DNA of 64,000 nucleotides. Origin: Blastomussa wellsi (lineage: Eukaryota; Cnidaria; Anthozoa; Scleractinia; Plerogyridae). Of the stretch, positions 19,494 through 49,500 are shown piece after piece; positions within the stretch are counted from its first letter, which is position 1; every line of letters starts with the position of its first letter. The position numbers and the translations under genes are program-made. The stretch spans positions 12,717,294 through 12,781,293 of the forward strand of contig OX393562.1 of the NCBI GenBank assembly GCA_947652115.1, in the 5' to 3' direction. Below the pieces are notes generated by a model. The model searched no databases. It was not told where the DNA came from and saw nothing but the letters and a program-made list of their open reading frames with translations.

Positions 19494-19526
<33 letters not shown>

Positions 19527-22500: not shown

Positions 22501-25500
22501 GCCATGTCCGAACAACGGAGCTGGTAACACATCTCCTAATAATTCTTCTGTACAAATTCAGTTCAGGTCCCACTTCTTAAAAACATTTGCTGGAAAATTA
22601 TCCAGATTATCCTGTTCAACCTACCGTGCAAATAACATTTCAGGAAATATATCCAAACTTTGATTTTAAATGGAAGAAGTTTACATGCGTCCTATAATAA
22701 CTAAAATAGACTGTGAAACAAGATAGTTTCAATATAAGATTTTGAATCGTATACTACGGACAGATAGAATATTGCACAAAACGAAGTTAATTGAGTAGCC
22801 CCTTTGTAGTTTCTGTGGAGTGGAGGAGGAGTTCCTCGCGCACTTTATTTATCGATATGCGTATGTTAACCGTTTTTGGCTTTCAATATCAGTAAATTAT
22901 TTTGGAAGTCTACGTCACCGATTCCACTCTGCAAACCGTTTGCATCGGAGAATGAACCAGATTTTATTCAGACGATTTGTTTTCAAGTCACCCGAAGTTT
23001 AAAAATTCTGTTAAAAATCCGGCCAGCGGATTATGATGGTAGTCAGCCGCTACGAGATTATTTGAGACACGTTCAGCGTTGCGCTGTAGTTAATGGCTGG
23101 ATTAACGATGAAGATGTTGTTTTTTCTGGCCGCACGTCTTCGCGGCGAAGCTCGAAAGGTGTTAAATGGTATGACTGATATCGACTGTCGAAATTACGCG
23201 AAGAATGTTGACAATCTGGAGCTTGGGTTTGGTGTTGAAAAATAGCGCGAGCTGCACCAAGCGCGTCTGCACAACAGTCGCCAACAGGACACGAAAGCGT
23301 TACACAATCTTAGATCCACAGGTATCGCAATTGGGTGTACTATTGTTAATGCCCTGTCTCAACTCACATTTGCAACAAAATAGCCTTTATGTTGCAAGGA
23401 CTTTGGTGGATGTTAAAGACGACCGAGGGGTTCCTTTCAATGATACTGACAACGTTTAAAACTTGGCTGCTGAGACTGTGGTTGCCCTAGCTAAGTCTAT
23501 TGTTTCACTTCGATCATTTTATTGGATCGGTACGAGGATAATCAATACAATGATCTACACAATTATCAGCATGTATTCTCCCTCTCCGACAGGGACTTCT
23601 TTACCACAAATATGGATTATGGATTTGGATTCGCTCCGACGAAGGGCTAACGCTCGAAACGTCAGCAATTGAATCTCTTTACGGTGGCCAATTGACATTA
23701 TCAACCCAGTTGATAAAACCAAATTATATTGTTATACTTCCCATCGACGCAGCACCACAGTTTCTTTAGAAAGTTACCCCTCAACCACACATATGGTCCA
23801 GCACAAAATTGAAACAGGAAACGCGCCAATCGGACAACAGCCCCGGCGCACCTCTCCTTGGAAACATGATGAAATCGAACAACAAGTAGCTGACCTCTTG
23901 AAGCAAGGGAAGGTAGAAGAATCATCTTACCCTTGGTCTCTCCAAAAAGGACGGTAGCCAGAGACTGCGTGATGATTACCGCCAATCAAATGCATCAACG
24001 GCAAAGTATGCCTTTCTCTTGGAACGAGTTCACGATTCACTTGTTGCTTTAGGCGGTTCGAGATGGTTTTGCACACTGGATCTCGCTTCTGGTTACTGAA
24101 AAGTGGCTATGGATGCAAGCACCAAGGAAAAGGCAGCATTTGTAACTACAAGTGGCTTGTAAGAATGGAACGCCATGCCATTCGAGCTCTGTAATCGAAA
24201 CAGGAAATCCGCCCCCAATCCGACAACAGTCTCAATAGAAACATGATGAAATCGAACAACAAGGAACTGATCTCTTGCTCAGGAAGCAATGGAAGGTACG
24301 AGAACCGTCAAGCCCTTGGTCCTCTCCAATTGTAATGGTGACCACAAAGGACGGTAGCCACCAATTGAATGCAGCAACGGCAAAGGATGCCTTTCCCTGG
24401 CACGAGTTCACTTGCTGCTTTAAGTGGCTCGAGATGGTTTTCCACACTGGATCTTGCTTCTTGTTACTGGAGTTGTAACTCCAAGTGGCTTGTATGAATG
24501 GAACGCCATGCCATTCGCGCTCTGTAATGCCCCAAGTACATTTGCCAGATTAATAAAACTTGTCTTAAAGGGTTTTCATTGGAACATCTGCCTGATTTAT
24601 CTTTATGATGTGATTTTCAATGGGCACACTTGCACGTTGCAAGTTCTGTGGCGTGATAAATGTTAGAGATAGGATGAAATGCCCTGCTTATGGCCAGCAG
24701 TGTAACAAGTATGGAAAGAATGACCATTTTACGGTGAAGTGTCAAGCAGGCAAAAGTCCAAGTGAGAAGTTCCGTACAGATCAGAGGTGGCACTTTGTTG
24801 ATGATTTAGACCAGTGTTCTTTTGAAGAGTATACTATTGATGTCATTACACACAGTATCAGTGCCGTTGAAAAATTTGGAGTCCTGTCCCAAACAATTGT
24901 TTACAACTGTGCATGTAAACAACTCTAAGGATGTCACATTTCAGCTTGCAATTGATTCTGAACTAACCTGCAACTTACTACCCCTGAAGGAATTTTCAGG
25001 CATATTAGATAATCTCAAAGATTTGTATTAAAAAAAAAAAACGTATGAAACACTCATGTATCCCTGCAGCGTTAAGACCACTCATGGTGAAGAAAGTGCA
25101 TTCAAGTCATATCGGTGTAGACGGCTGTCTGCGAAAGGCTCGTGATGTTCTATTCTGGCCTGGTATGTCCAATGCTAAATGTGGCACGTGCAACATCTAT
25201 CAGAGGAACCAGCAGAAGGAGCCTCTCATACCTCACAATCCTCTCAATCCTCGAAAACAAAGATTGGTTCATCATTGTAGACAGCTGGTCAGATTACTTT
25301 GAACTAAACCAGTTACCCAATAACACTGCAAGTACCATCACCTACTCTCTCAAGAGCCAGTTTGCACGTCACGGCATACCAGCCAGACAGAGAGACAGAC
25401 ATGTTTTATTTGGAGTCTTATACAATAAATAGTATATCGACTATGGATTCCAAATAACTAAAAATTACGAATAACAAAAATATATATGACTAATAAGTTA

Positions 25501-28500
25501 TTAATTAATTAAGTCCTAGAGACACGCTTTATAGTGACAATGGATCCCAGTTTGCATCTAAAGAGTTTGAAGAGTTTGCATCAGTTTGGCATTTTGACCA
25601 CCCAATGTCATCACCATTATCGCCAGTCAAATGGGAAGATTGAAAATGCTGTCAAGACCGCCAAGAGATCACTAACCAAGTCAAAGGAAAGTGGACAGGA
25701 TTCATATCTTGCCATTCTTGACTGGCGCAACACACCATTGGCCAGCATTGGAACCATGAGTCGCCAGTTCTTTTTTTTTTTTTAAATAAGTACTAGTGAA
25801 CAGCACACAGTAACAGATCTTGTCAACTTGCTTTATTTTCTCCCACCGGTTTCGTCTGATCACATAGACTTCGTCAGGGAGTTTGAACACGATGGATACA
25901 ATGAACTTACTTTATACCTAATCTATAGAGTACAAATGATGTTCCAACTAGGGTGCGAACAGCGAAAAACACCTACAGAAAATTACGTGCAGGATATGAC
26001 AAAAATCCTGCGTATCATGCAATGTTTAATTTTGAGGCTCTCTCAATCATGTGCTCAGTTGGGTTTTCAGAACTGAGTATCTCGTAAACATGTGTTTAAA
26101 ATGTTTTAACGCTGTGTTTTACTGTGGAATTGTAGCGTTGCAATACTTAGCTGTGCGTGATCCAGAACAATTTTATCACGGTGGCATTTTTCCCCGACCA
26201 GTGACGTAATCCATATGGAAAGTTGATGCAACATGCTTTGAACTGAATTCGCTTCAGTAGCACAGTAAGAGAAATTCATTTTACACTAAGGAGAGAAAAA
26301 TATTGGAAAACCTTTTGTGGCTCCTGTCGAAATTCATTTATAAATATTGTGTATTAACTTCGTTTTCACATCAATCAAGGTTTCGTTTTTACCTTTAGGA
26401 CCCCATCTTCTGTATACTGCTTCCAAAATATTCCATCAAGACTTGAGCTAATTGTGAATTCTCTGACATACTTGTCCTCCGAAGAATGGGATTGAATGGC
26501 GAGCGCTTGAATAACATTCACAACTTTAAAATCCAGTTGTAGAAACTGAATCTTATTTGAGTCATTGCTGTCTGCACACCACGATGATTCAGGGAACTCG
26601 CCATTTAATTTAAGATTTCCTTGCCATGGAGTTAAAACAGATCCATTGTATGTAGAAATGTTTGGGTGTTGAAAATTTCTGGTCATGTTAGAAGCGTGTA
26701 TAGATCTTGCGCACACTGCAAGTGAAAACCGTTTAATTAAAAGTAGTCAAGTTTTCAAATTTATAACTTTGGTTCTGACAATGATGTGTTTAGGACTAGG
26801 TGACTAGTGGAAATATTGGTTGGAAAAGCTGGAAGCTAATTAAGAGAAACATTTGGCAAAAAGACACAGGCCTACTTTAAGAAGGGACGTCATCAGAATC
26901 CAATCAATCAGACAGTCATTTGCCCATCCAGCGCAGATTGAGGAATGATAGGAAAGATACCACAGGTGACCAAAGCAAATAAGAGTTTATAAAATAACTG
27001 AGATACTACGCGTGCTCTTATTGGTCAGCAACCTATGTTATATTGTACCGGTAAACTCCCGCTTATTCCCCACGCGTGACGATGAAGAATTAAATGAAGT
27101 TTATTGTTTTATTTTCGATCGTCAGATGGTTTATAAAACAGAAGATATGATTCTCATAAACGATCGCAATGCAAAAAGGTTGGATCACTAAAATGAATTT
27201 TCCCCGCCCGCCGCAGCTGGAGCGAATGAACTTTAGGGAGGAAGAACTCAATATTTCAACTATCTTTTTGCAAGTGCTCGGCACTGGTAAAAAGCTACCA
27301 CAATAGTGGCTGCGATAAAACTTTCGCAAAAACATTTATGCGCCGAGTCCTTTGTACGCACTTGAATTAACTTGTTAACTTTCGTGCTTTCTGTGAAGCC
27401 TGTCAGGTCTATCAGCAAGAAACGAAGACATGCGAGAAGATAAATTCAAAATAAATTTCTGAGCATAACCGACGGCTCGTAAATGATTTACAAGCGTTTC
27501 TCGTGTTCTCCCAACATCCCACGTGGTTTCATTACGCCTGTAAAGCCCCAGAAAGCGTGGTCTATTACTTAATAGTAAGGAAAAGCTGCAAGCTTCAATA
27601 AAGTTTAAAACCTTACCTAGAGTCCAGTTTTGGCCTTTCTTTAGCTTTTGAAAGCCATATGGGCGATTTTCATTCCAAAGGTTAAGTATGTTGAAATAAA
27701 CATCGCGCGTATGGCACTTAAAAGCCCAAGAAAGGCCTAAACTGGACTCCAGGTAAGGGTTTAAACTTTATTGCAGCTTTTCAAGGGGAAAACAGAGATA
27801 TTTTCAGCTTAATTATAAATCCATACAAACTCTTATAGTTTGCCTTGGTCACCTGTGAAGATACCAACCTTCACATCCATACACTTCGACGCGCATATAT
27901 CTTCTTCCACACCACTCTTTGGGCCAAAAACGCACAAAGCGTGCGGTAACGTTCTGTTTCAGGAAATGCTTCGTTACTGTGTTGGTAAGGGGAGTACTTG
28001 TAAAGGTCTAAAATTAAAAAAAACAGCATTTATATATGTTTTTGTATATATTACGTATTTGTTATGAGAGAACATGTATGGGCACGACTTAACCTGTCAG
28101 TAGGATGCTTATCAAGTTCGTTGATTTTCTGAAAAGAGCCAGGCACAACAACTGTTGTATGTAAACGACGTGCGATTAAATATTCTCCCTTCTATCCTTC
28201 CCTTGCACGTAATGTTAAATCAAATTTTACCCTGACTTCACCGTCCTCTCTGTATTCGAACCAATGCAAAAGATCGCTGGAGAAGGTCAACTGGAATTTC
28301 ACCACAGCCATCTTGAAGTTCATGTGTCCTTGAGTTGCCACAGCAGTGATAACGTGATCTGTCAGTCCAACTGTGATCTGGAGAAAGGCGCCTCGATCTG
28401 TGGTTGCTGCCATCCACGTGTATGTTGAATGAAAAAGCCTACTTCTGGAATAACTATAACTACTCCAATGAGAAGTTTCTCGAATCGAAGTGGACGGAAT

Positions 28501-31500
28501 GTGATCATCCTCCATGCCAAGAGCAGTGGAACAAGCTGTTGAAATGAAAAACTGATGATGATGGTGGTGATGATGACGATGATGGTGATGATACAAACTG
28601 CAAGGCTGATACTACGTGAAAAAATTGACTTTGCGAGACAACAACCAGACAGAAACCGATAAAGCAAGGCTGCAACCGTGGACAGCTGTTTCGTTCTTAT
28701 TGGAACTCGTCAGCATGGTGTAGCAGTTTTAAATGAAACCAGCCAGAAAGCCAGCTCAAATAAAATGCAACAAAACCCACGCTTTATCAAGTTCCGTACT
28801 TTGAACAAACCGCCCCCCGATTTATGATGATGGCGATGATGGTGATGGTGGTGGTGGTGAAGATGACGATGATTATGAGGATGGTGGGGATGGTGCTAAT
28901 GATGACGACGACGATGTAATGATGTTGATTTTGATTGTCACAAGTCACAAGTATGATCGGAAATATCACAAATAATTTAACGCTTTCAATCTAAACAACG
29001 GTCAATCAGCAACGATATGATGTATATTTTATTACATTGCCTAACCTCTGCATCCAAAAATCTCTACTCGCATGCAGGTCCATCCAGACCAGGTAACTGG
29101 TAAAAACCTTAAATGCCGTGAAATGATTCTCTTGACAAGTGAATGTCGTAAGACTTGATTGCTTTGTGAGTTCCCATCAAAGATCTACAAAAAAGGCGAA
29201 ATTTATCCCTTTGCATATTCTTCTATTCAGATAACTAACCTAAATGCATTATTGAGAATAAAATTCGCAAAGTAGCGCGAGAATAAGTTCTGTGAAACTT
29301 CCCAGGAGACTCCTTCAAGAAAAGTTTCCTTTAACTTACTATATTCTTAAAATGGCGAAGGATATTAACAATTCATATCTGAACTGCGGATGTAGATGTT
29401 AAAAAGAAATCAATTTTTCAATTTATGATCAAGTTTTTGACTAACCGCAACTGCGCATATATTTTAGAGGTAGCTGTCAATCATCTCCGCCTTATGTTCA
29501 AGTTGTAACACTCGCTTGTATCAAATCACGTCAAATATCAAGGATATTTTAATACATTGTGTCCCAGGCGTCTGGTTTCGGTATGCTTAAAAATCTGTTT
29601 TCTGAAATAAGTTTGTGGCGATTCATGAATGTGACTAGCGGTTAATTAAATGAAACCAGTAGTATAGGTCGCTCAATTGGTCCGTAACCAATCACAGAGC
29701 AGCATACAGCACACGTGACGCGTCTCGACCAATCAGATTGCCGGATTACATCCAAGATGGCCTCCGGACTTTTTAATGAGCAAAAATTATTCAGTCTGAC
29801 GTCATCCCTGAGGAAAACTCGCGCCCCAGACCTCTACATAGGTTCTGGACCCGTCTCACGGATTTCCAGGGCTAATCGATAAAAATCGATAATGGGATGA
29901 CGTCATGGCTTTCCGGTCCCCCGCTCCTGAAGGGAGCGTATTATTTTCCAGTCCTTTCGCTAGATGGGGCACTCCTCGGGGATTGGTTACCCGCGACTCG
30001 TGTTGGGATCCCTGACCTAGCGAAAAGAGCGGAAAAGGGTATCATCGGGGTGCCACCCCGACTCATTGTCGCCGGAACTATTTACAAATGAAACGCACGC
30101 AACTATTTACAATATTTACAAATTGCAGAGGAGCTCGGCCATCTCCACGTCGTGCTCGTCCAAGTCGTGCTTGTAACCGTACGGGTAGGACGTGAAGGTT
30201 TCAAAGTCGACCACCCTCTTGTCGAAGACTAGACCGTACTGTTTGGTTCGTGGTGATACCTTTAGGCGTTTCGTGGCAGGATCCCGTGTGAAAAAGTGGG
30301 GGTTGGTCACCTCCACGTCTCTGCGAACTCCTTGGGGATCCGTGAGTTCCTCCAGCAGGTTCCGCTTGAGTATCTCGTAGTTGAGTTGCGCGGAACCACG
30401 TACGGATTTCAGGGAGAACCCTCGCACCTTGCAACAGACTTGACCCTGGTCGGACACGAAGCCGTAGTTTTTGGGGCCACCCGACACGAACTCTGTGATG
30501 TAGTCGTCGGGTCGTCTGTGATCTTCGAGTTCGTCGGTCATGTCTCCCAGGTAGTCGCCCAAGGGAATGTCGACGAGACCCGGTTTCCACTTGTACACCA
30601 CAGAGTCCGTGTCGAAGTAGATGACTTGGGTGGTGAGTTTCTCTAGGTAGGAATAGAGTTTTAAACGCGCCCAGCAGGTGGTGAAGGCGGCTACGAAGAC
30701 GTTTGTCTTCCCGTTGTCGACCTGGTTGGAAGCCATGTTGGTGTAAACTACTTCCAACACTTCGTCGTTGCAGATGCGGATCTGGCGGATGTTCCACAAC
30801 GGGTTGGAGACGGCTTCGAAGAGTGCGGCAGGTGTGGAGATGGCAACGGTGGTGAGTTTGTCTAGGTTTTCTCCGAATTTACCCCAGAACGAGTTCAGCA
30901 TGAGTTTGGCGGTGGCTTTTCGGCCGGGGTTCTTGGTGATGAGGGCTGGGTCCAACGAGATACCCTCGTGCTCCACGTAGTCGGCTACGTACTCTTGCTG
31001 TTGTTGAGGGGTGGTGACACCACGAGGATATCCCGCCGATTCTTGTTTGGCCTTTAACCACGTGTTCACATAATTGGCGAAGAGCCCCGTCTTGCGCTGT
31101 TCCGCGGGAAAATGCCACACCTCGTGGATCGTGACGATGGTGTACCCCATCTCTACAGCCTTGATGAGCTCGGGTGTACACCACGTACCGGTGAGCATGC
31201 GTTCTTCGTCCGTGTGATAGCAAACGCAAGAACGGTCCGCGAACGGTTTGGACATTTCCGTCTCTACGCAGGAACGGCAGAGGGGAAAGACCAGCTTTCC
31301 ACCGCAACGGTACGGCAACACGGGATGGAAGAGCTCGTACGGCGGGAGCACGGTGACTTTGGCCATGCCGAAGTAGCTCGCTATGTTCTGGTCTTCCGGG
31401 TGAGTGGTGATGGTAGGATGACCCACGGGATACTCGGCGTACTTGTTGACCCAAGGGTAGAGCGACGTCACATCCACGTACTTGATGCGTTCCCCTTGGG

Positions 31501-34500
31501 TCTTGTCCACACACGAGTAAAGGCTGACGGCATTGGTGCGTCCACCGAAGAACGCGTCCCGTGGTTTGAGGGGTTCTTCTACTTGGATGGTGGATAGGAA
31601 GGTTTGTAGGACCGCCTCCGTCTTCACCATCTTATCCCACTCGCATTCCCATACGATGACCAGATTGTACCCTTCGTTTGACAGATTGTTCTCTTTAACC
31701 TTGGTGGCCTCGCGCAGTTCGTCAAAGGTGCGATCGCTCACGTTGCTTTGTTGATGACGACTCGGAAAAGAAGTGAGACACCCGTGCCACAAACACCCGT
31801 GAAATTCGTACACCGTGTTGGTGAGAGCGTCAAAGCCATCGACCAAGTATGAACGGGCCTGAGTGAACAACCGTTTTTCATCACCGTTGTGGGCGTGTCG
31901 TATGCGGTTCCCTTGGTGTTGGCAGGACGGAGAAGCATTCGCTCGCAATCTGTGCTCTTGCCACGCCAACCATTTGAGAGCCTTGATGGATTGGTTGGAG
32001 GTCGCACCGTGCCAGCCGCGAGGAGGTTCTACCGCGACGGTGTTGTTGGGAAGCTGTTTCTTTATCCAGTAACGATTGCAGGCGGAGGCGATGGTGATAC
32101 ATTTTTCCATCGGATTGAACTCGGCCTTCTCTTCGAACTCTCGTTGGAACTTTTGGCAGCCTGCCTTGAGTAGTTTTACGTCCGAGACGCAGTACGCTTC
32201 CATCTCCGTTTTTAGGACGAAGTGGTAGTCGTTGGCGACCTTGACGGCGTACCACGTCTCGAACGCAGCTTTGACTTTGGCAGACATGCCTTCTGGGTCG
32301 TAGGTGTCTGCGGGTGGCATCGGTCCTTCGTAATCTTGATGGTCGGCGGTGTTGAAGAGATGAGGGAAGAAACCCTTACACTGTTCGGTGATGCCGAAGG
32401 TGTCGGGAAAGGCTGACAGCGGGAACGGCAGGAAGCAGAGGGAGTCCACGAACTTGATGTCACCCGTGGAGAGGGAGAGCACTTTGGTCCCGATGTTGAT
32501 CTGGTTTTCCACGGTGCGATGAGTGTCGTACAGGTGTTTCAACACGAACATGCCATCGTACCCCTTGAAATTATGGAAGACGCCGATGACTTTGCGCGTG
32601 TCTCCGTATTCGTCAATCGTCAACCCGTCCAGGTATTCCATCAAGTCCGCGGTGCATGATGGACCGTAGAAGGAGAGCGTATCGTCTTCGTCTTCTGGCT
32701 CTACACACATGAGGATGGGTGTCTGAACACCGTCGGTGTCGGTGACGGCTTCGTAGTCCGCGTACACGAAGAGGGGTTTCGGTTTTTCGACCCACGCTTG
32801 ACCGTCCTCGTCCATCTCCACGATGCCGCGAGTACCCACCCGCACTTGTGTTTGTATCGCTTTCTGCTTTTCTTTTCTTTGGAGGCAGCGTCGTAGGTCT
32901 TGCAACAGGAAAGACACTTTTTCTTTACATCGCACAAGGAACGGAGTGTCTTGGTCCCTTGTAAATGAGAATTGTAGCAAGAGTCGCCGAAGAAAAGACG
33001 ATGGCATAGGTGGCAGGCAAGAGATGGTTGAGGGAACGTACCGGGTGGAAAATCAGCTTTGGCCGAGGTAAAGTCCGGGCACTTGGTCTTCTCGCACGAA
33101 CGGCACCACTTGCCTTTGCAGGGATGATGGTCGATGTCGTCGTGATCGTAGCCTCGATCGCAGTCGTGGCAGTAATAAGAGCGCGACAGGAACCCGCTGA
33201 AAGAGTTGCACCCGTGGTAGTGCGCGTCGACCTTGAGGAGGAGGATCTGTTTTGGGGGCAGGTGGTCCCGCAAAGACGATACAATGGGGTTTGTCCACAG
33301 ACATGACCTTGATCTGGTATCGGGGAAGAACCGCTTGAAACTTTTGGAGTTCGGCAATACCGCAAGGGCCTTCGGGTACATCGGCCAGTCCGTGTAAGTC
33401 TTTGGCCAGACGGGTCTGTACGGGACGGCCTTTTCTCAAGTTCTTGTAGTCGTTGCCCGCATTCCCCTCGTCGGCGTAGGCACGCATGGTGACGATGGCT
33501 CTGGCACAACACAACTCGTCTTCGTTTTTGATGACTACTACAGACTGTTTTCGCGCCAACAATTTTTCCACCGCCTCGCGCCCGGGACGGTACTTTTTAC
33601 CATGACCACTGCCTCTACCAGGGGTACGAATGAAGGTGGTCTCCACGGTGAAAGAGTCATCCGCTTCAAACTGTTGGTTGGAGTTGAGTTTGGCCGAGAG
33701 GGAATGGAGATACATGTCCAATCGATCACTGCCATCCTCGAACTCCTCCACGGTGAAAGATGTGGACTGGAACGCGTGCGTGAAAGCGTTTGACTGCAGT
33801 GTGAAGTGCAGGGTCGAATGGGGCTGCAAGGTGGAGTCCGAGGCGATCTGGTGACGAATGGTTCTTCGTAGGGCTTCGGTCACTTCTCGGCCCAAGTCGT
33901 CGCGAGGCGTCGGGTCCCTGTTTTGCCGGAGCGTAGCATGGAACCGTTGGCGGTCGAGGACTTGGCGCCAGTTCCTGCGCGGTCCCACGGGACGTAGCTT
34001 GAAATCCAGCAATGGCGGACCGCCACCCACTTGTTGTTGTTGTTCATCGTTCCACATGGCGGCGAGGGAAGGATCGTGAACCCATTCGTCGTCGTCGTCA
34101 GATAAAGATCTTTTTCTTTCGTTCCTAAAGGAACGGGCCGAAGCCGGAACAGAACTAGAACGCGAAGGTCGCCCAACCTTTTGACGGGAAGGACTCAATG
34201 ATCTGGAACGTGGTCTGGAAGACATCGCGAGATCTGAGGTTTTTTGAATTACGCGCCCTTCGTTCGCGCCTCTTATACTTTTCGAACGGATCGAAAGGCA
34301 CCAATCACAACGAGGATCGAAAGGCACCAATCGGTGCTTGTCTCGATTGTTTGACTACAAATATCCCCTACCCCCCCACCCCCCACCCCTCATTTCATGT
34401 CTAACCTTGTCTGACCTTGTCACCGATTGGTGCATTTCGATCCGACCAAAAAGTATAAAAGGCGTGAACGTGGGCAAATTCAAACTTGTCCGCTCGTCGA

Positions 34501-37500
34501 GTCGATCGTAGTCTGTGTGTATTTCTGCCTTTAAATGGAAAATCAAAAGACCTCCGGTAAAGAAATAACTGGAAAGAGAAGCAACTTAACAGCAGAGCAG
34601 AGGGAAGCGTTGTTTTTTCGGTACTATTTATTCATTCTCCCTGACGAGCTGTTGGAAATGATCCGACGATACGTCGTAAGTTCTTATCGTTGTTGTTGTT
34701 GTTTACCGTTTTGGTTTGCTTTTAATCCTCGTGTTTTGTTGTTGTTACAGTATGCTCAAAAGATCAGAGAGAAGAACGAGATTGGATGGCAGAAGATCAA
34801 TGCGATGGTTAATTACTTGAATCCGGAACCCAAGAGGGATTCACTTGGAACGTACGTTTGTAAATTTCATACTCATGTATTAGATCATGCATTTGAACTA
34901 TTAGGACACCACGTATGCACAAATTGGCTTTTTTTTTTCTCCCCCACGTGGGATACACTCTCAGGTTCTGTAGACAAGTGTTTATTTTTTTTTCCCCGTT
35001 GATTTTTTTCAGAACCAGCCGTATAATCGACATACTTTTTATCCGTTGGTCTGACATGTTGCTTTGTCAAGAGTGTGACCGCGAGTACGATTATCGCCGT
35101 TGCGATGAAAGTGTGCGTTGTTGTTATTACTGCCCTGGATGTCTTAAACTTTTTTTACCTTGATTTTTTTTCAGAATGTGTCGATCTAATGTTTTCGCTT
35201 ACGGCTTGATGTTCTGGTGTCCAAACTGCGAATATTATAGTGTTTTCATGAACTTTCTTGGCGAGATTTTTTATTGTTGTGGTTGTAACGCGAACGTCAT
35301 TTGAGATGTAAATAGAGTGTGTTTCTTTTTTCCTAGGTTGTCTTGCGGTTGCCCTAGACCTGTACGACATTTACTGTACTTGTTCGATCGAATCCCGTTT
35401 TGAATTTAGACCATCTTTTTTTTTTTGCTGTATACATAGATTGAGATGTAAATAAAGTGTTGTCTTGCTGTTGCTCGACCCACTTTTTATACTATCTTCA
35501 AAAAATAAATAAAAAGAGTGTTATTGTACTTTTTTTCAGAATGCGTCGATCTAATGTTTTCATGTATGGGTTGATGTTCTGGTGTCCAAACTGTGAATAT
35601 GATACTGTTTTCATGAACTTTCTTGGCGAGAGTTTTTATTGTGGTGATTGTAACACGAACGTCATTTGAGATGTGAATAAAGTGTTTTTTATTTTTCCTA
35701 GGTTTTACGTCACTACACATTACCCATTGCGATTTCGATTTCGGTTATTTTGTAAAGATTGTAAACGTTACAAGATTTGTGTGTATCCCACTAGTATGCA
35801 TCCCACTTGTTTGTATCGCACTTGGATGTATTGTTTGATCTGTGAAAGAGAAATCGACATTAAAGCTTTTTTGTAAAATGATTTATGTCTAAGATTACTT
35901 TAGTCGATTGTTTATTTTGTATCCCACTTGGATGTATTGAACTGTGAAAGAGAAAAAGACATTAAAGCTTTTTTTGTAAAAAAAATTTACCCAGGTATTG
36001 CAGACTCGATTGGGATGTGCTCCTACCCTTTGGTGCCCAAGAGAACTGGAAAAACAGACTTCGCGCCGTAATACCCCCTTGCCATTGCCAACTGTTTGAG
36101 ATGACTTTTAGAATCGACTTGTGGTGCGCGTGGTACGCGTGGAAAATCTTGCACTGTTGTGAAACCCTGTAAATTGTTTTGAAATGCTTTTAATGCAATA
36201 AAAGAACAAAGGTTATTTACAAGTGTGTGTCTTCATCCATAACCAAAACGCGTGACATTCTACCATGCTACAATGGGCCCTAGTACAATTAAAATGAAAA
36301 CCGCAATCGGGTAAGGGTTCTACAATCGTTTCTAACACTCGTTCAAATTTCGGACAACTGTAGTCTTCTAAATTTAAACTAGGAATGTTCAGTTCGTTTA
36401 ACAAGTCTCTTTCCACGTGACCACCCTTGTAAGCCACCACGTCACACCCGCGAAACCTGTGACGCGAGTAAAGTTCCAACAGTTCGTCTTTTACTTTGAA
36501 CTGAGGGAGGGCCTTTTCGTCTTTCGTGGGAGAAAACGTCAATCCGTGCACGTTGTATTTCACGTACCAGGCCGTCCTCTTGTCTTTGGCGCAACACTCC
36601 ATTTCAATCATGAATGTGGAAGAAGTGAAAGCAGAGGTGACAAAGACACTCAAAAAGTTACAGACCAAGACGGGGCAAAAAGCCTTCGACTTTGAAGTGC
36701 GTGTCGTGCCTGACGAGTGCGACACCTTTGAAAAGTTTAAAGTATGGTTTTCGACACCAGACGCTTCTACACCAACAACACCAAAGTCGAAGGACTCGTG
36801 AACGATCCGGACCTTTACGCCCAAATGGCCACCTTCTCCACACTGGACGACGTGAAACCGGACGACCACACGACCGCCTTCTTGTTCGACATTTGTCACA
36901 TCCCGTTCAGCGAGTACGAACTGACCGAGGAACGCTTACATCTCCATAACCCAGACTGGTTCGACAAACATTGGGCGTTCGTCAAAGGGATGTACGACGT
37001 GTACTTGTTCCAGCACAGGTGGTTCGAGTATCATCACGCGCAAAACAAATTCGTGATCTGCGACAAGCCTGATTTGGAAGGTGACGCCATCATCGTCACC
37101 GGCGACGAGGTCGCTCTGTCGTTCTCTGCAGTTCACGCCCTGGAATCTCTGTTCAGTTGTTTGACTACGGCACGCGATCTGATCGAGGACGATATAGTGA
37201 ACCCCTTCGATCTGAAGGTGGAGGACACCTACGATTACAAACGACTGTGCGACAGACTCGTCCGACTGTTGTACGCGGAAAGAGAGACGAGCGAATTCTG
37301 GTTCGCCAAGACCAGGACCCTGGTGCGCGACTACGGATGCGACATTTGCAGAGAAGAATGGGACGCTTTAGAAGCCAGTGAAATGAACTTGTACGATAAG
37401 GAATTAAGAGAATTTAGATCGTCTTGTAACGACGTAGGGTGTTGCTACGTCAAGGGTGCCTTTTTTTGTGAATAAAAGTTCATTGTTTACCCTGTTGTCT

Positions 37501-40500
37501 TCATTCGAGTCATGAATAGCGAAGCGTACTGGTGTTGGGTGAAAGACGTGTGTCTACGCGTCTATCTCAAATACGGACAAGGGATCACGGTTCCCTTAGA
37601 TCCCGTCCACGATCCCTTGCATGTTTTCGACGAGGCCGACGTACAAAACAAACCCTTTCGTTTCGCCGTCTACATAATGTGGTTGAGGTACCAACCCCAC
37701 GCATTCGATTGGTTCAATTGTCTGTTGACGCAACGCGACGTCCTGGTACGGGATTGCACGGTACGACTGACCTCCATTCTGGCGACGACATGAAACGAGC
37801 ATTGCAGAACTACGTCGATCCTTCCAAACCGGGTAGTTTGGGAGGCGTGCATCGGTTTGCCAGAGCCCACCGACTCGACCCGACTAAAGTCAGGAAACTC
37901 TTGGAAACGGAACTCGCGTACACGTTACACAAACCCAGAAGGAGACGTTACCCCACCTTACCCGTGTTGGTTTTCGGCATGGACGAGCAATGGGTGGCCG
38001 ACCTGATCGAGGTGCAAAACATCGCGAGAGAAAACAAAGGGTACAGGTACCTGCTGACGGTCGTGGACGCTCTTTCCAAGTACGCGTGGGTGGAACCGGT
38101 CAAAAACAAGACGGGGAAAGCCGTGACGGAAGCCTTCGCCAAGATCTTGAAGCGAGCCAAAGGTAGAAAACATATCAATTTACAGACGGACGACGGTAAA
38201 GAATTTTACAACAAGACCTTTGCAGAGTTCGCGAAACGTCGAGGCATCCATCACTTTTCCACGGCCGGAGACACCAAAGCCAGCATCGTCGAGAGGTTCA
38301 ACCGCACCCTGAAGGAACGCATGTACAGGTACTTCACTGCCGCGAACACGACGAATTACACCAAAGTGCTGCCTGCCTTGGTGAAAGGGTACAACGTCTC
38401 GTTTCACCGAAGCATCGGCATGGCACCCGCCAAAGTGAACTCGGCCAACCAAAAAGCCGTGTGGAACGTGTTGTACGCCAAGAAGAAAAAAAGAAGACGT
38501 CGCGGCAGCGAATTCAAAGTGGGCGACAAGGTACGTCTCAACACGAAATTTCGTCCTTTTCAGAAAGGTTACTTGCCCGGATAGACTGAGGAAGTGTTCG
38601 TGGTACGCCGAGTGAAGCCGGGACCACCTCTGACCACTTACGAGTTGGACGAATACGACGGCACTCCTCTGAAAGGCACGTTTTACAAGCAGGATTTGCA
38701 AAAAGTGTCGGTGGGAGACGACGACCTGTTCAGGGTGGAAAAGATTCTGAAACGAAAAGGTACAAAAGTCCTGGTGCGTTGGAAAGGATGGCCAATCAAA
38801 TACGATAGCTGGATCGACAAGAAAGCTCTGGTGACACGATGAAAGACTTTTACGTCAAGTTGACGAGCGGTTCGAATCGGTTCGAATTTCCGGACAACCG
38901 AGCCAACCGTTTCAAGAACAGACTCCCGTACCTGATGCAGTTCAAGGAACCCGGTTGGAAAGTGGGCATGACGGACATTCACGTGCCCAAAGCGCCCCGT
39001 CGAGTGGACTTGAAAGATCCCTTCTTGTTCCGTTTCGAGTGGCAGTTGAAGTACGGCGACGGAACTTACGCCGGTACGGACGACACGACGTTGGAGATCA
39101 CGCGTGACGTTCTGGAACGGTTGCACCCCAACATCGCTAGCGGTACCCAACTCCTGCAAGCCGTGAGACGTCTCTACTACAAGACGTTGCAAGACGTGGA
39201 CGTGGTGGACGCCGACCTGAGACGAGACGATGGAGAGAAATTGTACACCCGACTCGTGTTCGACCGAGACGAATTCGTCTTGGACAACCGCGACACATTC
39301 ACGGGGGACGCCCAGCGTTACCCGGCCGTGTTCGTGGGATTTCGATTGGCCCGGGACATGGGATGGATCGAGGTGACGGGTCCGCCCGATGCTCCCGTCT
39401 ACGTCCTGGGTGACAATTTACGCAAAGACTTTCCCGACGACACCGTGCCCAGTGCCACCGACATCGTGGAAGGCAACGACGAATTTTACAAAGTGGACAA
39501 CGATGCCCTCCAATTGAGCTGTTTCTGCAATTGGGTGTTTTCGTACCTGAACGAAAGTTACGAAAGAGCCTTCGGGTTTAATCGACGCCAACTGTTCGTA
39601 CACTCCAGCGTGGTGGAAAGCATCCCCGTGGGCGTACGCATGACGAATCTCTTGGGGGACATTCCGTACTCCTTGGACCGACGCGGCTACGAGATGCAAC
39701 ACGTTCGATGTATGCCCGTACGCGGAGAACTCTTGGACATTATCGAGATCGTCGTGAAGGAGGAGGACGACGACACCGACGTTCACTTCGAACCCGGGAA
39801 CACCGTGGTGACGTTACATTTCAAGTATGCCTGGTGAAGAGTTTTACCTCACGTTACCCAGCGACAGCAGTCGCGGCTAATATCCCGACAACGCGAACAA
39901 TCACTTCAAGGTGCGACTACCCAATCCCATGGAAGGACAAGGTTGGAAAGTGGGATTGAGCAGCATTTCCTTACCCGATGCCAAAGTGACCATTCCGGCC
40001 GTGACCGACGATCCCGAGACCATCCTCTTCACGTACAAGTGGGTCAGAGACAACGACAATAAACCTTATCAGGGCAACCGATTCACCGTCGGGACCAGCA
40101 AAGTGAATCTCCACGACTTGAACAACGTGTTTTCTACGATGAACGGTGTGGAATTCATGAAAAGCGTGGTGAATTTCTACGATCAGAAAAAATTCACAGC
40201 CTACGGTGGTCCAAAGCTGGGTAGCAAATATACCAGTCCGATAGACAACAAGCGCTCGTACATACAGTTCAAGTGGGAAGGAGACGAATTGGTCATAGAC
40301 AACAAAGACATCACCCGAAAAGGAGAACCTCCTGCATTCCAGATCAACAAACACCTGGCCGCCAAGATGGGGTGGTTGTCTGAAGATGAAAGTAAGTTGG
40401 GACCGAATCTCCTCATTTGAGTCAGACACCATCCCCAACATCAACATCAATTATGCCGACGTGAAAAGTTTTGCGGGAAATCCTACATTGTCGGATAGTA

Positions 40501-43500
40501 GTGGAGAGTTTCTCAAATTGAGCTATTACTGTAACTGGCGATTCATCAACTTGAACAAAGCATTTGGACACGTGTTGGGGACCACGACGTCACGATCTCT
40601 GTTCGTGTACTCGGACGTGGCCCAGAGTTCGGTGGTGGGCGATCAAGTCACCGATCTGTTGCGAGAAGTCAACTACGTGAGAAAAGGACAAGGCAGCACT
40701 TACTTCGAACCGCTCCACGTACAATATATTCCGGTGCGCAAGGACACGTTAGACATTATCGAAACGCAAGTGTTCGAGACGAACGGCCCCTTGACCACAT
40801 TCGGTGTTGAAGGCAGGACCATCTTGACGTTGCATTTCAAACGAGAATGAGAGGAGGTAGTTTGACGCGCTACGTACCCGACCAAGACGGCACCGGTTTC
40901 TTCAAAGACATCCTTTCCTCCACCGCCCGAGAAGGTTGGCGAGGTTTAAAAAGGGGTCCGTTGGGTCTACCCGTCAACATTTCCGCTGCCGTGGCCGGAG
41001 CCAAGAGAGGAGCGAAACGTACGGTGAAACGTAAGATAGAAAGAGAAGCCAGCAAGAGGCTCAAGAGAGGCCTCAACGATCTGTTTGGTTCGTGATGAAT
41101 CCCATCTATTCCAGACGCGTGAAACGGATAAGGAAAATAAGTCAACGAGGTGGGACGTTTTGGTCCGACTTGGTGAAACAACTGCAGCGACAGTATCCTA
41201 TAAAAAAGCGAGGTCAACGCAGAGGTACGTTCATTCCTAGACGTCAACGCAAACGAAAACGATGACAGATCTCGTGCCTCTGACCGGATCGACGGGCGTG
41301 TCCAATCCCAAATTGGATCTGTTCCGCGTCCCACCCACCGATGTCAGCATCTCCAGTTTTCGCATGGTTCCCATCCAGACCTTTACCACAGGGATCAACC
41401 CCGTGGACTTTCAGGTCGATCCGCAAGAAGATTACATCGATTTGAGTCGCAGTTTCTTCGAAGTGGAATTGAGGTTGAAGAAAGCGGCGGACGGTACCAA
41501 TTACGCAGTGGCAGACAACGTGTTTCCCGTCAACAACTTGGCGCACACCTTGTTCAAACAGATCAACGTCAAACTCAACGGAACCTTGATCAGTCCTCAG
41601 ACCGACACGTACCATTACAAGGCCTACCTCGAAACGTTGCTGAACCACGACAGAGACGACGGCGACACCATCTTGAAACCTCAAGGCTGGTACAACGGCA
41701 TCGACTGTCCCGACACGTTGACGGCCAACAACCTGGACGATGCCGCGCCTCACGCCGACTTCGAAGCTCTGACTACCACTCAACAAGAAACCGTGAAAGC
41801 CCTGAAAGCAGAAAGAGCCAAGTACCTCGGAGGTACCGTGCACGTGTTGCGCTTCACGCCCCACATCGAAGTGTTTCACATGGACAAGGTCTTGGTGCCA
41901 GGCGTGCAACTCCAGATCCAGATTTACTTCAACAACCCAGATCTGTTCACCGTGGGTGTCGCAGGGCAACCTGCGGCTCGACTCACGAGCCAAGACATAA
42001 AAGTCAGACTGTACCTCTGTCAACTGAGACTCAATCCCTCCGTGTACTTGGAATTGGAAAACAAACAGAGAACGACCCGGAAACCCGTCAGCTACACCAC
42101 CGTGAGAGGTGAAATCAGGACCTACAACATGCAAGGCAACCAACAACGCTTCGAGATCAACAACCTGTTTCAAGGACGCATCCCCAATCGTTTGGTGGTG
42201 GGTATGGTGTCGACGGCGGCTTTCACCGGCACGTTGGTCACCAACCCCTTTAATTTCCAGAAATTCGGTTTGAGCAGCATTCGTCAATTGGTGAGAGGAG
42301 AAGAGTACCCGTACGAGACGTTGGAACTGGTGCACGACGACGACAGCAAGGATCTGAGAGGATACTTCAGGTTCCTGCAAGCCACGGGGTGTCTGTGCCG
42401 AAAGAAAGGAAACATGGTGAGGAGCGAGGAATGGGGACAAGGCAGGAACAGCACGCTGTTCGTATTTGACAACGCGGCCAACGGATGTTTGGACAGTCCC
42501 GTGTTGAATCCCAAACAGAGCGGAGAGGTGCAGCTGGTCCTGAATTTCGGTGCCAATCCAGGAGTCAACATCACCGTCGTGGTGTACGGCGAATTCGAAA
42601 ACTTGTTAGAAGTCGACGCCAACAAAGCCGTCCTGTACAACGTGTACGAACGCTGATGGAACGCGTGGCCCTGAACAACGTGCAGTTGGACCATTTGGCA
42701 GAAGCAGACCCCGTGTTGAAACCGCATTTTCACGGGACCGTGGCCTGCGACGAATTACCGTCGACCCCTCGCAAAGGCGTGCCTCGGGGTTACATCGTCA
42801 ACACGGATCCGTCCGACTTACCGGGTCGCCATTGGATCGCCCTGTGGACCGAAGGCAACGTGTGCGAGGTGATGGACAGTTACGCGTTACCTCTGGAGGC
42901 GTACCAGACCGCGGGACCGTTGCAAGCGTGGTTAAAGACACATTGGAAGTACGTGATCCGAAACGGACAGAGTTTACAGTCGTTGTTCAGCAAGAGTTGC
43001 GGCGATTACGCCCTGTTGTATTTGAGTTCGAAAGCCAGAAACGAAAGCATGCAATACTTTGTAAATCGTTTCTCCAAACACGATTACGCGGCCAACGACC
43101 ACCAAGTAGGCCAGATGTTACGAGAAAAAATAGTAAGAGCCTTAGGATGGCAAGATGTTTGTAAACGACCTCACGTTCAGAACACCGTGCGATCGCACGG
43201 TGGTGTAAATCATTTTTTTTTCGAATAAAGAGGTGTGAAAACGAACCCTGTAGTCACTCTGTATCCATGGATCGAGGAGACGCGTTCACCTTCAACTGTC
43301 CGTGCAGCATCTTGATCGTGGGACCGTCGGGCTGCGGTAAGACGGTCTTCACTTCCAAACTCTTGACGGAAAACGCCGACTTGTTCGGGTCGTCTCCCAA
43401 GGTCGTACGATACTGTTACGGCGCGTGGCAGGACAAATTCGAGGACATGCAGCGAAGAGGCATCAAATTCCACGAAGGCATTCCAGACACGAACGATTTG

Positions 43501-46500
43501 AAAAAGTGGTTTCCCAAAGGAGGTGTACTGGTGATGGACGATTTGATGGACGAAGGAGGCAGCGACAAACGCGTGCTCGATCTATTCACCAAACACTCTC
43601 ATCATCAAAACATCACGGTGTTGTACTTGTGTCAAGACATGTTCCCGCCCGGCAAGTACGCCAAGAGCATTTCCAGAAACGCGCATTACGTGGTAGCGTT
43701 CAAGAACCCTCGCGACCAATTGGGATTTCGAAACTTGGTGCTTCAAGCGTTTCCGAATAAGTGGAAAGACGTGCACGTCAGGTACAGACGAGTGACGGAC
43801 AAGCCTTTCGGTTACATGGTCTTGGACTTGCATCCTGCCAGCAGCGACGATCGACGACTCCTCAGCCACTTGTTAAAAGACGAGGGATACGTGCGATGTT
43901 ATCAGTTCGAAGAAGACGAAAACCCATAACTATCTGTGATGCAGCTACGCGACGTGTCGTGGTGCAGGTTCCTGCACTGATGCAGGCGACACTTGAGCCA
44001 GATGAGGCCCGACGACATGGATCGCGACGCCATGACGCGATTGGTGACGACGTGTAAGACGTGGGAGGACGTGGACGATCTGGTACGAGCATATAACGAG
44101 ACTCACTTCAGAGAATTGATTCACTCGTTACGCGATCGCTGAGGAAGTGTTACCTTCGGTGGGCGTGGGCAGATCTCCCGACGTACCGTCGATGGGAGAT
44201 CTCATTCACATGGCGTTAAACATTTCGCCTTTGAGCCCTCATCCCATCGACACCGTAGATTTGGATCGTTTGGATCCGTCTGCAGTGGATCGTCAACAGT
44301 TGCAGGCCATGGACGACCTACGAGACCAAGACATCATGGCTGCCTTGAGTCCCGCACACGTGGACCAGATGATGCAAAACGCCTACGGCACGCCTGGCGT
44401 AGGTTCTCCACCCGCACCCGTTTTCTCGACTACTTCTCCGGCAGGCGTAGGTACACAACCCGCGAGACCCACGGTCCCGCACAAGAGCCCTCGTAGGCGT
44501 CTTCCCTCGAGTAGCAGTAGTAGTAGCAGCAGCAGCAGCAACAACAGTACACCTAGAAGACCGCCGAGAATGAATCAAGACGACTTGCAGCGACAATTAC
44601 AACTGTTGTTAAACGATCAAAGTCAATCGGCAGCTGGACGACGCATCGCAGGCATCACGACCACCAACACCATCACCACGACCTACAAAGACGGAGGCAG
44701 ACCCAGCGTGCGACGCACTTCTACGCGAGTGAGCGATTGAGATGGAACGACAGGTCTCACTCTTGAACGGGACCCACGCCAAGTGCCCCTTGGACCGCAA
44801 ATTATTGTACAAGTTGGACGGACTCTTTGCGTTTTACCATCGTCAGTGGTGGTGTCATCGTCAGATGTTTTACCATTTCAAACGGTGTCACGGTTGTTTG
44901 AACGCGTTGGCTTTAATCGTAGTGGCAGCAGGCATCGTCGTGGGTTCTGTGTTGGAAAACAGTATCCTGATCGCTTGTTTGTCGGCGGCAGGTACCGTGG
45001 TCAAGGGATGGAACGATTTTAAAAAGTTTTCCTTCAAAGTCGACATGTGTCGTTTTGCCTACACCACCTACGACAAGATGTTAATCGAGTTGAGAACCTA
45101 CGCACGAGGTCTCCCCATGGACGAGTTGGACGGATTCTTAATCAAGATGCAAACCTTGGACGACACCATCACCGATTTCACCCCGCCCGTGTCCGACAAG
45201 TGCATTCGAGACTACGAAAAAACATTTCGTTACGATCACGTGGATAAAGGCGAGAGCACGACGGTGTGAGAATCAGTTTGGGCAATGAAGGGGAGACGAA
45301 CAGGTCGTGGTAGAAGAACAACGCGAAAGAGACAAAAAGGAGGACTCTTTCCCCTGGCGGCACTCATTCCAGCTTTGGTGGCCGGAGGAAAGGCCATAGC
45401 AGCGGGTGCTCTGTCCGGAGCTGCAGGGTACGGTGCGAAAAAAGGATTGGAGGCGTTAGAAAGAAGAAGAAAAAGAAAACGAAAACCCCTCACGCGGTCC
45501 CAATTGAGTTCTGGATCCAAGAAACAGGCCAAAGTCATCTCGCGCATCGTAAAAGGTTTTGTGAGATGAAAAGGAGGAGGACTAAAACACGACGCAGAAG
45601 ACGACAACGAGGCGGTGCATTGCTCAGTATACTCAAGAACGCTGCGACAATCGGGTACAAACTCGGAAAGGACAAGAGGTATAAAAGAATGGGTGCAAAG
45701 GGTGTCACGGGTAGTTACAAAAGACGCTCTGCTCCGTGGGAAGTATGATGAGACTGTTACGTAAGGAGAAACGTTTCCTGACGTCCATCCTGAACGAGGC
45801 GGACCGGTACAGGCGACAAGACATGTTGATGCACGCCAATGCCGATCAGATCAACGCCGTCAGCGAAATGGTCTTGAATCTGCTCAAGAGAAACATCCCG
45901 GTGAGCGAACGAGCGATACAGAAGTTACGACCTCATAAAACAAAACTACGCGAACTGGCCAAACGCAAACACTCGGTCAAACGACGACGCGAACAACTGT
46001 TGAAGCAACAAGGCAGCGGGTTTTGGAACGGTCTACGCAACGTCTTCAAAGCATGTCACTGCAAGAGCGGTTAAAAGGGTGGAAGCAACGCGTGGCCTAC
46101 CTATTGTCGGAAACGAGAGAGCTACGAGAACGTTTGGAACGCGTGAAAGAAAACAGAGACCATTGGTATAAAGCCTACCACGATCTACGCCGCCAACACA
46201 CCTCCTGGAAGTACGCGGACGAACGTTTGTGTCCCGACTGCAGAGTCGTCGCCGAAGGTAAAACGCGCGAGTTGTGCCAGGAGTGTGCCGATGACGCGAG
46301 AAGTGCTCATGATCCCGTCCTCGGAGTTCGACCGATTGACGAACCACTACAAAGGCAAGTTGACACAGAGCGCGCTATTGAACAAGGCGGCTCGATTGTC
46401 TGCCGAGAAACAATTGTTGGAGAAACACTTACCTCCGGGTCTGGCCGTGAAGAAAACCAAACCGATTGCAAAGGAAGTGGGTAAACTCGGCCGACGCATC

Positions 46501-49500
46501 CGACGAGGACCCGTGACCGTTCGCAGTGCACCCGACGATGACGACGACGACGACGACGTGCTCTTAAACGCTCCCTTGGAAAACATGTTGAAACAAATCG
46601 TCAAAGCCAACAAGGCGACAGCTGCTGCAGCAGCAACAGCAGCAACGCCCGCCGTCGTCGTTAAAAAGGAATCCTCGACGCAATCCAAATCAGTTCCACG
46701 CAAGAAAACGATCAAACGACAACCTGCCACACCGTCCACGTCCCACGCAGACCAAGGACCACCAAAAACGACTTTCAAAGAAAAACTGACAGGTCTGTTC
46801 AAGAGGAAGAGAAAAACAGAAGCCGAGCGATTGAAACCGGCACCCGAGTGGGAAGATTGGCACAAAGGCAAGAAACTGAGACGTCCTTTAGAGCCCGAGT
46901 ATGACGAAACCGACGAAGAAGAAGAGTCGTACGAGGAAGAGGAAGACGACGACTAGTGGAGGGGGATTCGACATCCAGAAATTACTGGCAAAAACCGGCA
47001 TGGAATTTCATTGGCCCGGATATCAGTTCATGGGACCTGGCACTCATTTGAAAAAGAGACTCAAACGAGGCGACAAGGGCATCAATCGTCTGGATCGGAT
47101 TGCAAGAACCCACGACATCGATTATTCTCGTGCCAAGAACCTACAAGACAAGTGGGTAGCGGACGCTAAGATGATAAGTGCGATCAACAAGTTACCCGGC
47201 AAGAAAACCATGACAGAACGCATCGTGAGACGTATCATGCAAGCCAAGAAAAAACTCAAGTTGTAATAAAGTCTTTTATTGACAATTGTTGTAGTTCGAA
47301 AAAAATATTTACATCGTTTGCAATTAAAAAATTTGTTCTTCAACAAGTGAGTTCCTTATAGAGTGTGTTGAACCTCTCATGAGGGGGATACCCCCCCATC
47401 CCCATACCCTTGGTATCACGCGACCTGTTTTGAATGTATATAAGGCATTCGCTTTCCATCCCACACCACCAGTTACCCTTTGAAGATGAGTGAGAGGGTT
47501 GAGAAACAACTATTGTTGGACACATATGAAGAAGCGACTGCTTTGATGGAATGGAAGTTGGACGCAGATAAAGAAAATTGCAAAGGTACCCGTTACCAAG
47601 ACATGGTTGATCTGATTGAAGATGGGCCGTGGTTCCTTGATAGGATAATTCAGATATCCTGGGATGCTACTTCAGATGACCCTGAAGTGCTTTCTTTGTG
47701 GGTCGATTTGCTGAGATGGGCAGAGGCCTTCGATAAATTGAACTCTTAATTGTGGAACATTTTATGGACCGTTTATCTGCATTTTATGGACCCTTGATGG
47801 AACATTTTATTGCATTACTATTTTTTTTTTTTTTGATTTTTGTTTTATTTTATCAGTCATGTCTTGTGGAAATTTACCTTCATGCTGTGTAGTCTGTGGC
47901 CAGGAACCTCCCACGTGTACACAACCTCTTCACAGAGTGCACAACGCTGATCACGAGAAGTTCGTGAAAGAAATCAAATGGGGCGAGATAACAGCCAAGT
48001 GGGGTGGTCGCGTTTTCTTGACTTGCTGCGGTTCCATTTATGGAGAATATTACGATATTGAGGAGTGGAACTTTACAACCGTTTTTCTAGGTGAGAATCT
48101 TGAAAAAGCACTCAAACGTATAAAATTTGTGAAGACTTTTATTTTGTAAACAAAACAACATCTGTGATTTGTTGATGTAGCACACGCTCCTATAAAATTT
48201 GTGAAGACTTTTATTTTGCATTGTAGCGTTTAGAAATGCCATGTATGATAGGAGAATTGGACTTTTATTTTGCAAGCGATTGTCACGTTTTGTAAACTTT
48301 AGAAATGCCATGTATGATATTAGAATTGTAATTAAAATAATTTTGAAAAAATCTCTGTGTGATTTTATTTATTCTGTTCTATGTAGCACTCGCTCATATA
48401 TCGTTGCGTTCAATTTGTAAATAGTTCCGGCGACACTGAAAGCGCTTAAATAAATGAAAGCCTAAACACAAAGACGGGACGTCTCAATCAGATAAGCATG
48501 TGCGTGCAAGTGCCAAATCTGTTCGCTCCAAAAAGGCTAAAATTTTGAACAAAAGATTGAAATATGATAGAAACTTCAAATAAACTTTGCTTCAAATTAA
48601 ATGTCATTGAAGATGAACCCACGAAATGTACTCAAAATATCAAAATATCGAAAATTTCAAAGCCGTGCAATTCTGCATGCGTAATTAGTTTATTCACACT
48701 TCACTCGGCTTCATGCTAAAAGTGGAAAGTTCAAATTTTAGCACACGGCTTTTGCATTCAATTCATAATTGAGTGGCTTTACCGATCTTTCTAAAACTTC
48801 CATACAAATTCGAAGCAACATTGTACATTACCATTTTGTGTTCAAAAGTCTTGAAAAGCCTAATTAACTTCGTGTACAGGTCCGTGATTCGAATTCAAAA
48901 CACGTTTGTAAGCGCCATGACATCATGTCTTAAAGGCCGTAAAAGGATAGATGAATCCTTCATCAGCGAGGTTTAAGCAGTCTATTCATGATTTTCCATT
49001 TCAAATCCACTAAAAAATCAATCTGTGTTTCTCCTCCTCATTTTTAACTCCAAAGAGGAGTGCCCCATCTAGCGAAAGGACTGGAAAATAATACGCTCCC
49101 TTCAGGAGCGGGGGACCGGAAAGCCATGACGTCATCCCATTATCGATTTTTATCGATTAGCCCTGGAAATCCGTGAGACGGGTCCAGAACCTACGTAGAG
49201 GTCTGGGGCGCAGTTTTCCTCAGGGATGACGTCAGACTGAATAATTTTTGCTCATTAAAAAGTCCGGAGGCCATCTTGGATGTAATCCGGCAATCTGATT
49301 GGTCGAGACGCGTCACGTGCGCTGTATGCTGCTCTGTGATTGGTTACGGACCAATTGAGCGACCTATACTACTGAAACCCAATTAAATTTATAATTATAA
49401 ATTCAAAGGAAGGAATACTTTGAATCTCGTTGTATTTATTGAGCAATTAGTCTACAACTTATTTGCCCGCTAAACCAAAGGCTATAATTTGTAGTGGACG

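Follow-up and report, generated by a model that had tools for sequence, protein, structure and literature searches.

Anatomy of the array gene

The window analysed here, a stretch of 64,000 nucleotides from the genome of Blastomussa wellsi (contig OX393562.1), holds one complete Polinton of 19.7 kb (29658-49373); within this element, to the right of PolB and with a TATA-type promoter in front, lies a gene composed of two common exons and a downstream array of six short cassettes, A to F (hereafter the array gene; Table 1). Gene content and ends place the element among the Polintons/Mavericks: PolB (Pfam match 6.5e-36), a retroviral-type integrase (rve match 6e-14), a capsid protein, a packaging ATPase, terminal inverted repeats and a 6-bp target duplication are present, the ATPase being identified by an A32-like match alone (4.3e-4, below cut-off) and the capsid protein by its 595 homologues in the protein database with no Pfam cut-off reached. 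At least one capsid homologue, among the 120 matches listed, has the coral Oculina patagonica as its named source; no relatives were obtained from IMG/VR via the ATPase, the capsid or a 28-row capsid alignment.

The six acceptors of the array lie within 1.2 kb (after 35012, 35174, 35336, 35539, 35701 and 35994) and all resume the phase of exon 2, each cassette being open to its own stop; exon ends, phase, GTACGT donor and acceptors agree in their coordinates with the original prediction, which had been made from the letters of this window. With common exons, one donor and several same-phase acceptors with stops of their own, the gene has the architecture of alternative terminal exons. Four of the cassettes (A, B, D and E) encode clear CxxC...CxxC modules, as had been proposed, and each such module would be expected to hold one zinc. 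Eight acceptor-like sites passed the filter; read in the predicted phase, they yielded four long cassettes with CxxC pairs, versus none in either of the other phases, and not one of 2000 dinucleotide shuffles reached four (mean 0.002). B and D are indeed tandem duplicates (175 nt, 90% identical, 365 nt apart), the two cassettes differing by 8 nonsynonymous and 3 synonymous codons. The proposal of six alternative terminal exons stands as regards acceptors and phase, but has to be modified for the first pair: as A is devoid of a poly(A) signal and its stop sits in the pyrimidine tract of B, A versus B would be a choice of 3' splice site and not one of separate terminal exons.

We consider it probable that the array gene is an accessory gene of a Polinton (adintovirus-like) in which one head is given alternative short endings by splicing. 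One promoter would drive the two common coding exons, which together specify a head of 80 residues; the head has a single donor, which would pair with any one of the acceptors downstream, and behind each acceptor a short ending opens in unchanged phase. Most endings would bring their own poly(A) signal, and one gene could in this way yield about six proteins with the same head and different tails. The use of alternative acceptors in the RNA is what we infer from the arrangement of signals and frames.

Table 1. Features of the array gene and of its host element (positions in window numbering)
Feature	Position	Strand	Remarks
Target duplication, 6 bp	29652-29657 and 49374-49379		GAAACC, on both sides of the Polinton
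Left terminal inverted repeat	29658..29977	+	99% complementary to right end; ends about 320 nt
Mirror-image copy of promoter module	34262..34307	-	faces the DNA polymerase gene
TATA-type promoter of array gene	34424..34469	+	ATTGG box and GTATAAAAGG
Common exon 1	34535..34675	+	47 codons, phase 0, donor GTAAGT
Intron 1	34676..34750	+	GTAAGT...TTACAG, 75 nt, stop-free in the window
Common exon 2	34751..34851	+	33 codons and 2 nt, followed by the GTACGT donor
Start of intron 2, conserved stretch	34852..34928	+	read-through would give a tail ending HHVCTN in 25/58 loci; stop missing from the window copy
Cassette A	35013..35163	+	49 codons, CxxC...CxxC, contains LLCQE; no poly(A) signal of its own
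Cassette B	35175..35304	+	42 codons, CxxC...CxxC; AATAGA at 35311
Cassette C	35337..35403	+	21 codons, no CxxC pair; AATAAA at 35451
Cassette D	35540..35669	+	42 codons, CxxC...CxxC, duplicate of B; AATAAA at 35676
Cassette E	35702..35876	+	57 codons, CxxC...CxxC; ATTAAA at 35859 and 35961
Cassette F	35995..36172	+	58 codons, weak acceptor, scattered Cys; AATAAA at 36197
Major capsid protein	41265..42653	+	same element; yardstick for divergence and selection
Right terminal inverted repeat	49055..49373	-	99% complementary to left end

Related loci in the host genome

For comparison, 60 stretches of the host genome (the window copy included) were used, which cover 61 of the 67 exon-1 matches; the six matches outside this sample are at places on C12, C9 and C10. 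Both common exons were matched in 58 of the stretches, to which the 58-locus counts refer; L041 and L048, having no exon 2 match, were left out of them, and the second arm of L043 (L043b) was likewise not counted. Many of the 58 loci are related copies and not independent events. In the counts of acceptors, indels and ligands, matches starting after query base 30 or ending before base 80 were dropped.

In the window, intron 1 contains no stop and its length is divisible by three, for which reason the window alone could not reveal its splicing. Across the loci, its length amounts to 67-86 nt in 56 of 58 and is not a multiple of three in 24 of those 56, yet exon 2 shows no frameshift, so that comparison shows the intron to be real; the aligned parts of exons 1 and 2 are without net indel in the loci compared. 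The splice signals of the head are conserved: the donor GT of exon 1 is kept in 57/58 loci, the acceptor AG of exon 2 in 56/58 and the donor GT of exon 2 in 52/58, five of the six misses (L043-L047) being copies that are without the end of exon 2. The acceptor AG of the cassettes is kept in 252 of 253 matches (A 47/47, B 48/49, C 42/42, D 26/26, E 49/49, F 40/40), and no strong donor is found inside the array in 52 of the 58 loci.

The conserved donor of exon 2 also bears on a read-through organisation, in which the common exons are not spliced to the cassettes and the gene ends in intron 2 with a short Cys/His tail. The 25-residue tail in question, TYVCKFHTHVLDHAFELLGHHVCTN, is identical together with its stop in 25 of the 58 loci, and in another lineage both frame and stop survive a 6-nt insertion. 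However, the stop is lost in the window copy, unrelated sequence takes the place of the tail in the loci that carry an extra proximal cassette Z, and the donor that such a gene would leave unused is retained at the frequency given above. We judge read-through to be a quite improbable account of the gene; the tail may well coexist as one more isoform, and the conserved start of intron 2 is a candidate for such a further isoform or for a splicing control element.

Poly(A)-like hexamers follow B/D in 82 of 85 occurrences, C in 40/50, E in 43/45, F in 20/41 and the extra distal cassette G in 17/18, versus 1/45 for A and 1/11 for Z (a motif was used to find the sequences counted here, as it was for all occurrence counts of Z, A, B/D, C, E, F and G). 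According to this pattern, transcripts with A or Z would use the 3' end of a cassette further downstream, and the other cassettes can be true terminal exons. The poly(A)-like signals that had been noted after several cassettes of the window thus hold for B, C, D, E and F, but not for A.

If, instead, every cassette were a small gene by itself, equipped with promoter and start codon, the ATG with which B and D begin right after the acceptor and the Met just before the module of A would find a ready explanation, and the TATA-type box upstream of exon 1, matched in 29 of the 58 loci only, would be less of a requirement. Such internal promoters, already envisaged as the alternative in the original prediction, are disfavoured: no TATA-like box is contained in the array of the window, nor in that of 57 of the 58 loci, C is without a Met and E without one before its first CxxC, and five loci with intact frame have lost the ATG of B. 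Lacking a usable Met, at least C and E would depend on the upstream exons, and we regard separate genes as extremely improbable. In L016, L027 and L043, the TATA-bearing stretch upstream of exon 1 is gone and the flanking promoter sequence is still there; these copies may accordingly be silent or use another start.

A cassette match is present in 51 of the 58 loci and lacking in 7. The array string A B C B E F was found in 19 loci; 10 add a distal G and 4 add a proximal Z, and the remaining arrays differ by loss, truncation or duplication, in some cases since the stretch or the element ends there. (Matches under half length are omitted from these strings; E was thus missed in L052, L053, L057 and L058, where it is present wholly or partly.) B/D occurs once or twice, as does E, of which L051 and L057 have two. 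An in-phase acceptor precedes the extra cassette Z in 11 loci, Z being complete in length in 8, and G, an extra CxxC cassette, has 18 occurrences in as many loci. Between elements, tails are thus seen to be gained or lost, duplicated and replaced by diverged versions across the 58 loci; the head changes little.

The Z-bearing loci L009, L014, L020 and L025 carry a diverged A (A', 86-87%) beside a B at 96-99%, a mosaic that fits the exchange of segments between elements, and such exchange may be a source of the tail variety. In L049, the capsid is at 95.8% versus 89% for cassette A and 86% for cassette B; in L040, the capsid is at 95.1% versus 71% for cassette E. By this measure, the array diverges more than the capsid in both diverged elements compared.

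Several loci are altered in other ways. In L038, cassette C is interrupted by a long frame with reverse-transcriptase-like wording, presumably a retroelement insertion. Array genes stand in convergent or tandem pairs about 3 kb apart in L029/L030 (C15) and L007/L008 (C1), which points to elements that nest or duplicate locally. L043 (5757 bases) is a large palindrome with arms of at least 2321 nt that are 100% complementary and 1115 nt apart; in each arm, exon 2 is halved behind a complete exon 1 and intron 1 and is followed by unrelated sequence, and the whole resembles a non-autonomous derivative by which exon 1 was captured with its upstream stretch. The pairs at C10:10895383/10900581 and C12:20750452/20754717, where convergent exon-1 matches alone were seen, may be palindromes of this kind. 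Outside the Polinton, several short frames on the minus strand of the window (10874-28611 and 49997-50377) look like discoidin (F5/8 C) domain exons belonging to a host gene cluster on both sides of the element; at 58258-61918, two long regions in opposite orientation with common peptide stretches are probably another transposon pair.

Selection on the head and on the cassettes

The ratio of nonsynonymous to synonymous differences per site (pN/pS), calculated from one row per lineage (7 or 8 lineages kept per part) with codon bootstrap, was 0.34 (0.18-0.60) for exon 1 and 0.26 (0.14-0.41) for exon 2; in two other countings, exon 1 came to 0.39 and 0.26, and exon 2 to 0.35 and 0.46. The capsid, which was found in 12 of 20 stretches and is partial in some of them, gave 0.06-0.38 against the window. 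By these low ratios, the head is coding and under constraint (purifying selection); for the cassettes, pN/pS alone is no proof of constraint. Individual copies of the head are damaged: stops in the common exons occur in at least L026, L037, L040, L050 and L053, rearrangements affect the common exons of L039, L042 and L055, and the copies L043-L047 break off within exon 2. The F-box-like character that had been ascribed to the shared part was not recovered when exon 1, exon 2 and the unspliced open reading frame (ORF) were each searched against Pfam; an F-box here would span the exon junction. Likewise, no J domain was matched by the exons searched singly, and no BTB or FLYWCH by single exons or cassettes.

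For the cassettes, the putative zinc ligands were compared with the other positions. In frame-intact cassettes, not filtered by motif, agreement with the window averaged 98.8% over the 12 ligand columns (A, B/D and E together) versus 86.7% over the 136 other columns (permutation p=0.0014). Distinct indels are a multiple of three in 20 of 46 cases in the cassettes versus 7 of 52 in the acceptor tract. When random substitution was simulated for three lineages, chosen as intact and motif-bearing, frame and four ligands were kept with a probability of 0.0024 for A, 0.020 for B/D and 0.00085 for E; the cassettes entering this simulation and the pN/pS estimates were required to have set lengths and the module motif.

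A number of results weigh against one head with splice-chosen endings. Selection on the cassettes is less sure than on the head, since all intervals of the per-lineage pN/pS (codon bootstrap) include 1: A 1.25 (0.59-3.46), B/D 0.44 (0.17-1.12) and E 0.79 (0.44-1.61). Under strict invariance, the ligand columns of frame-intact cassettes are set apart less clearly (9/12 versus 62/136 other columns, p=0.07), and still less so when frameshifted cassettes of similar length are included (5/12 versus 44/136, p=0.53); the motif-picked set gave 12/14 versus 59/154 (p=0.001), a comparison that is partly circular because the motifs contain some of those Cys. Broken matches amount to 18/47 for A, 9/75 for B/D and 11/49 for E, and every one of the 12 copies in the near-identical family L027-L037 and L042 has a frameshift both in D and towards the end of A. 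Cassette C has no CxxC pair, and the acceptor of F has fewer than 13 pyrimidines in 20 in all 44 of its 44 occurrences. As to the gene as a whole, the exon 1-exon 2 junction had 0 matches in the host genome at up to 3 mismatches, the TATA-type box upstream was matched in no more than half the loci, and protein database searches gave no homologue at E<=10 for the unspliced head ORF (15 candidates) and none for the B/D alignment; neither search thus led to an independent host species.

Part of these findings would also be expected if the array consisted mostly of relics, with one or two cassettes (e.g. B and E) at work and the others being tandem duplications in decay: B and D are plain duplicates, C is short, the acceptor of F is weak, the pN/pS intervals of the cassettes include 1, and A is broken in many copies and frameshifted in its tail, together with D, throughout the family just named. 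Decay is less easily reconciled with the all but complete retention of the acceptor AG, with A, B/D and E being open with four ligands in several diverged lineages (picked, as said, for being intact and motif-bearing) and with ligand columns that are better kept than others in frame-intact cassettes. We therefore look upon an array of relics as unlikely.

Cassette A deserves separate consideration. LxCxE is among the motifs of Oncoid genes, and the LLCQE of this cassette might make it an E7/T-antigen-like Rb binder with the other cassettes as accessories, a role that would be compatible with splice-chosen endings. All 7 rows chosen from diverged intact lineages read LLCQEC, and the Oncoid gene class is defined by short linear motifs according to PMC11071296. 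However, the cysteine within LxCxE also opens a CxxC pair and is likely a zinc ligand, on account of which we rate an Rb-binding role low and hold it to be highly doubtful; moreover, one copy reads LLCQK and another LLCQEG, the motif is absent from B and D, and E has LFCKD in its place.

Meaning of the array and relation to known systems

The original observation is confirmed, and its interpretation is partly supported: at the level of sequence, the gene anatomy, the conserved splice signals, the constrained head and the variable arrays are established. If the endings are indeed chosen by splicing, the most likely roles would be for the head to set a partner or location shared by all forms and for the more rapidly changing tails to choose host or viral targets. 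A more far-reaching reading, which we put forward as a tentative possibility and with more doubt than confidence, regards the array as a portable library of small zinc modules: by recombination and duplication, Polintons would pass cassettes from element to element, and splicing would select among them; if true, 1.5 kb would suffice for an integrating virus to encode target-binding proteins in a combinatorial set. Irrespective of function, the dozens of natural variants in one genome make the evolution of splice-chosen protein tails directly testable.

Alternative terminal exons on a common head are already known in host genes and polyomaviruses. What would be new is their occurrence in an integrating virus as a compact array of zinc modules that duplicate and can stand in for one another, for which no earlier report was found in the literature searched; no spliced cassette-array gene was met with in Polinton/adintovirus papers on splicing, introns and zinc, among them the accessible parts of PMC11071296 and PMC8363768, subscription papers lying mostly outside the scope of this search.

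Considering the modules singly, zinc ribbons such as those of ribosomal eS31/S27a and TFIIB are similar to the modules of the array in their two CxxC knuckles at similar spacing. They are among the best weak matches of cassette D in Pfam (E-values of 0.014, for S27a, and 0.041, both below cut-off) and of the B/D profile in PDB (0.14), values that indicate resemblance and not homology. The best E-values of sequence and profile searches against PDB were likewise weak for the other modules (A 0.49, E 0.91). One variant of E matched Mob_synth_C at 0.0013, with 19.1 bits versus a cut-off of 37.4, and this match was taken as chance.

The closest parallel in a host gene is offered by insect mod(mdg4), in which, as described in PMC4667647, common BTB exons are combined with duplicated alternative 3' exons bearing FLYWCH zinc motifs. 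Like the array gene, mod(mdg4) has a conserved N-terminal part that is spliced to many duplicated C-terminal exons, most of them with a zinc motif, so that the head is conserved and the tails are variable; it differs in being a host gene with a BTB head of about 110 residues, in trans-splicing in some insects and in a motif of C2H2 type. The array gene, in contrast, belongs to a mobile element, and combines a head of 80 residues, with no domain recognised in its exons singly, with CxxC pairs and six cassettes in 1.2 kb.

Among viruses, the T antigens of polyomaviruses share 78 common residues, and one alternative end has a unique Cys-rich zinc domain (PMC1945078); they thus resemble the array gene in being viral and in providing a head of similar size, about 80 residues, with more than one ending, a zinc-binding one included. 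They differ from it in their two CxCxxC clusters and, as far as the singly searched exons show, in the J domain of the head, and no sequence relation to the array gene was found. To our knowledge, the T antigens have few endings and no tandem cassette array. By the tests made, with exons searched singly, the array gene would be a member of neither mod(mdg4) nor the T antigens, and its likeness to both appears to be one of architecture: a constant head to which splicing may attach one of several endings.
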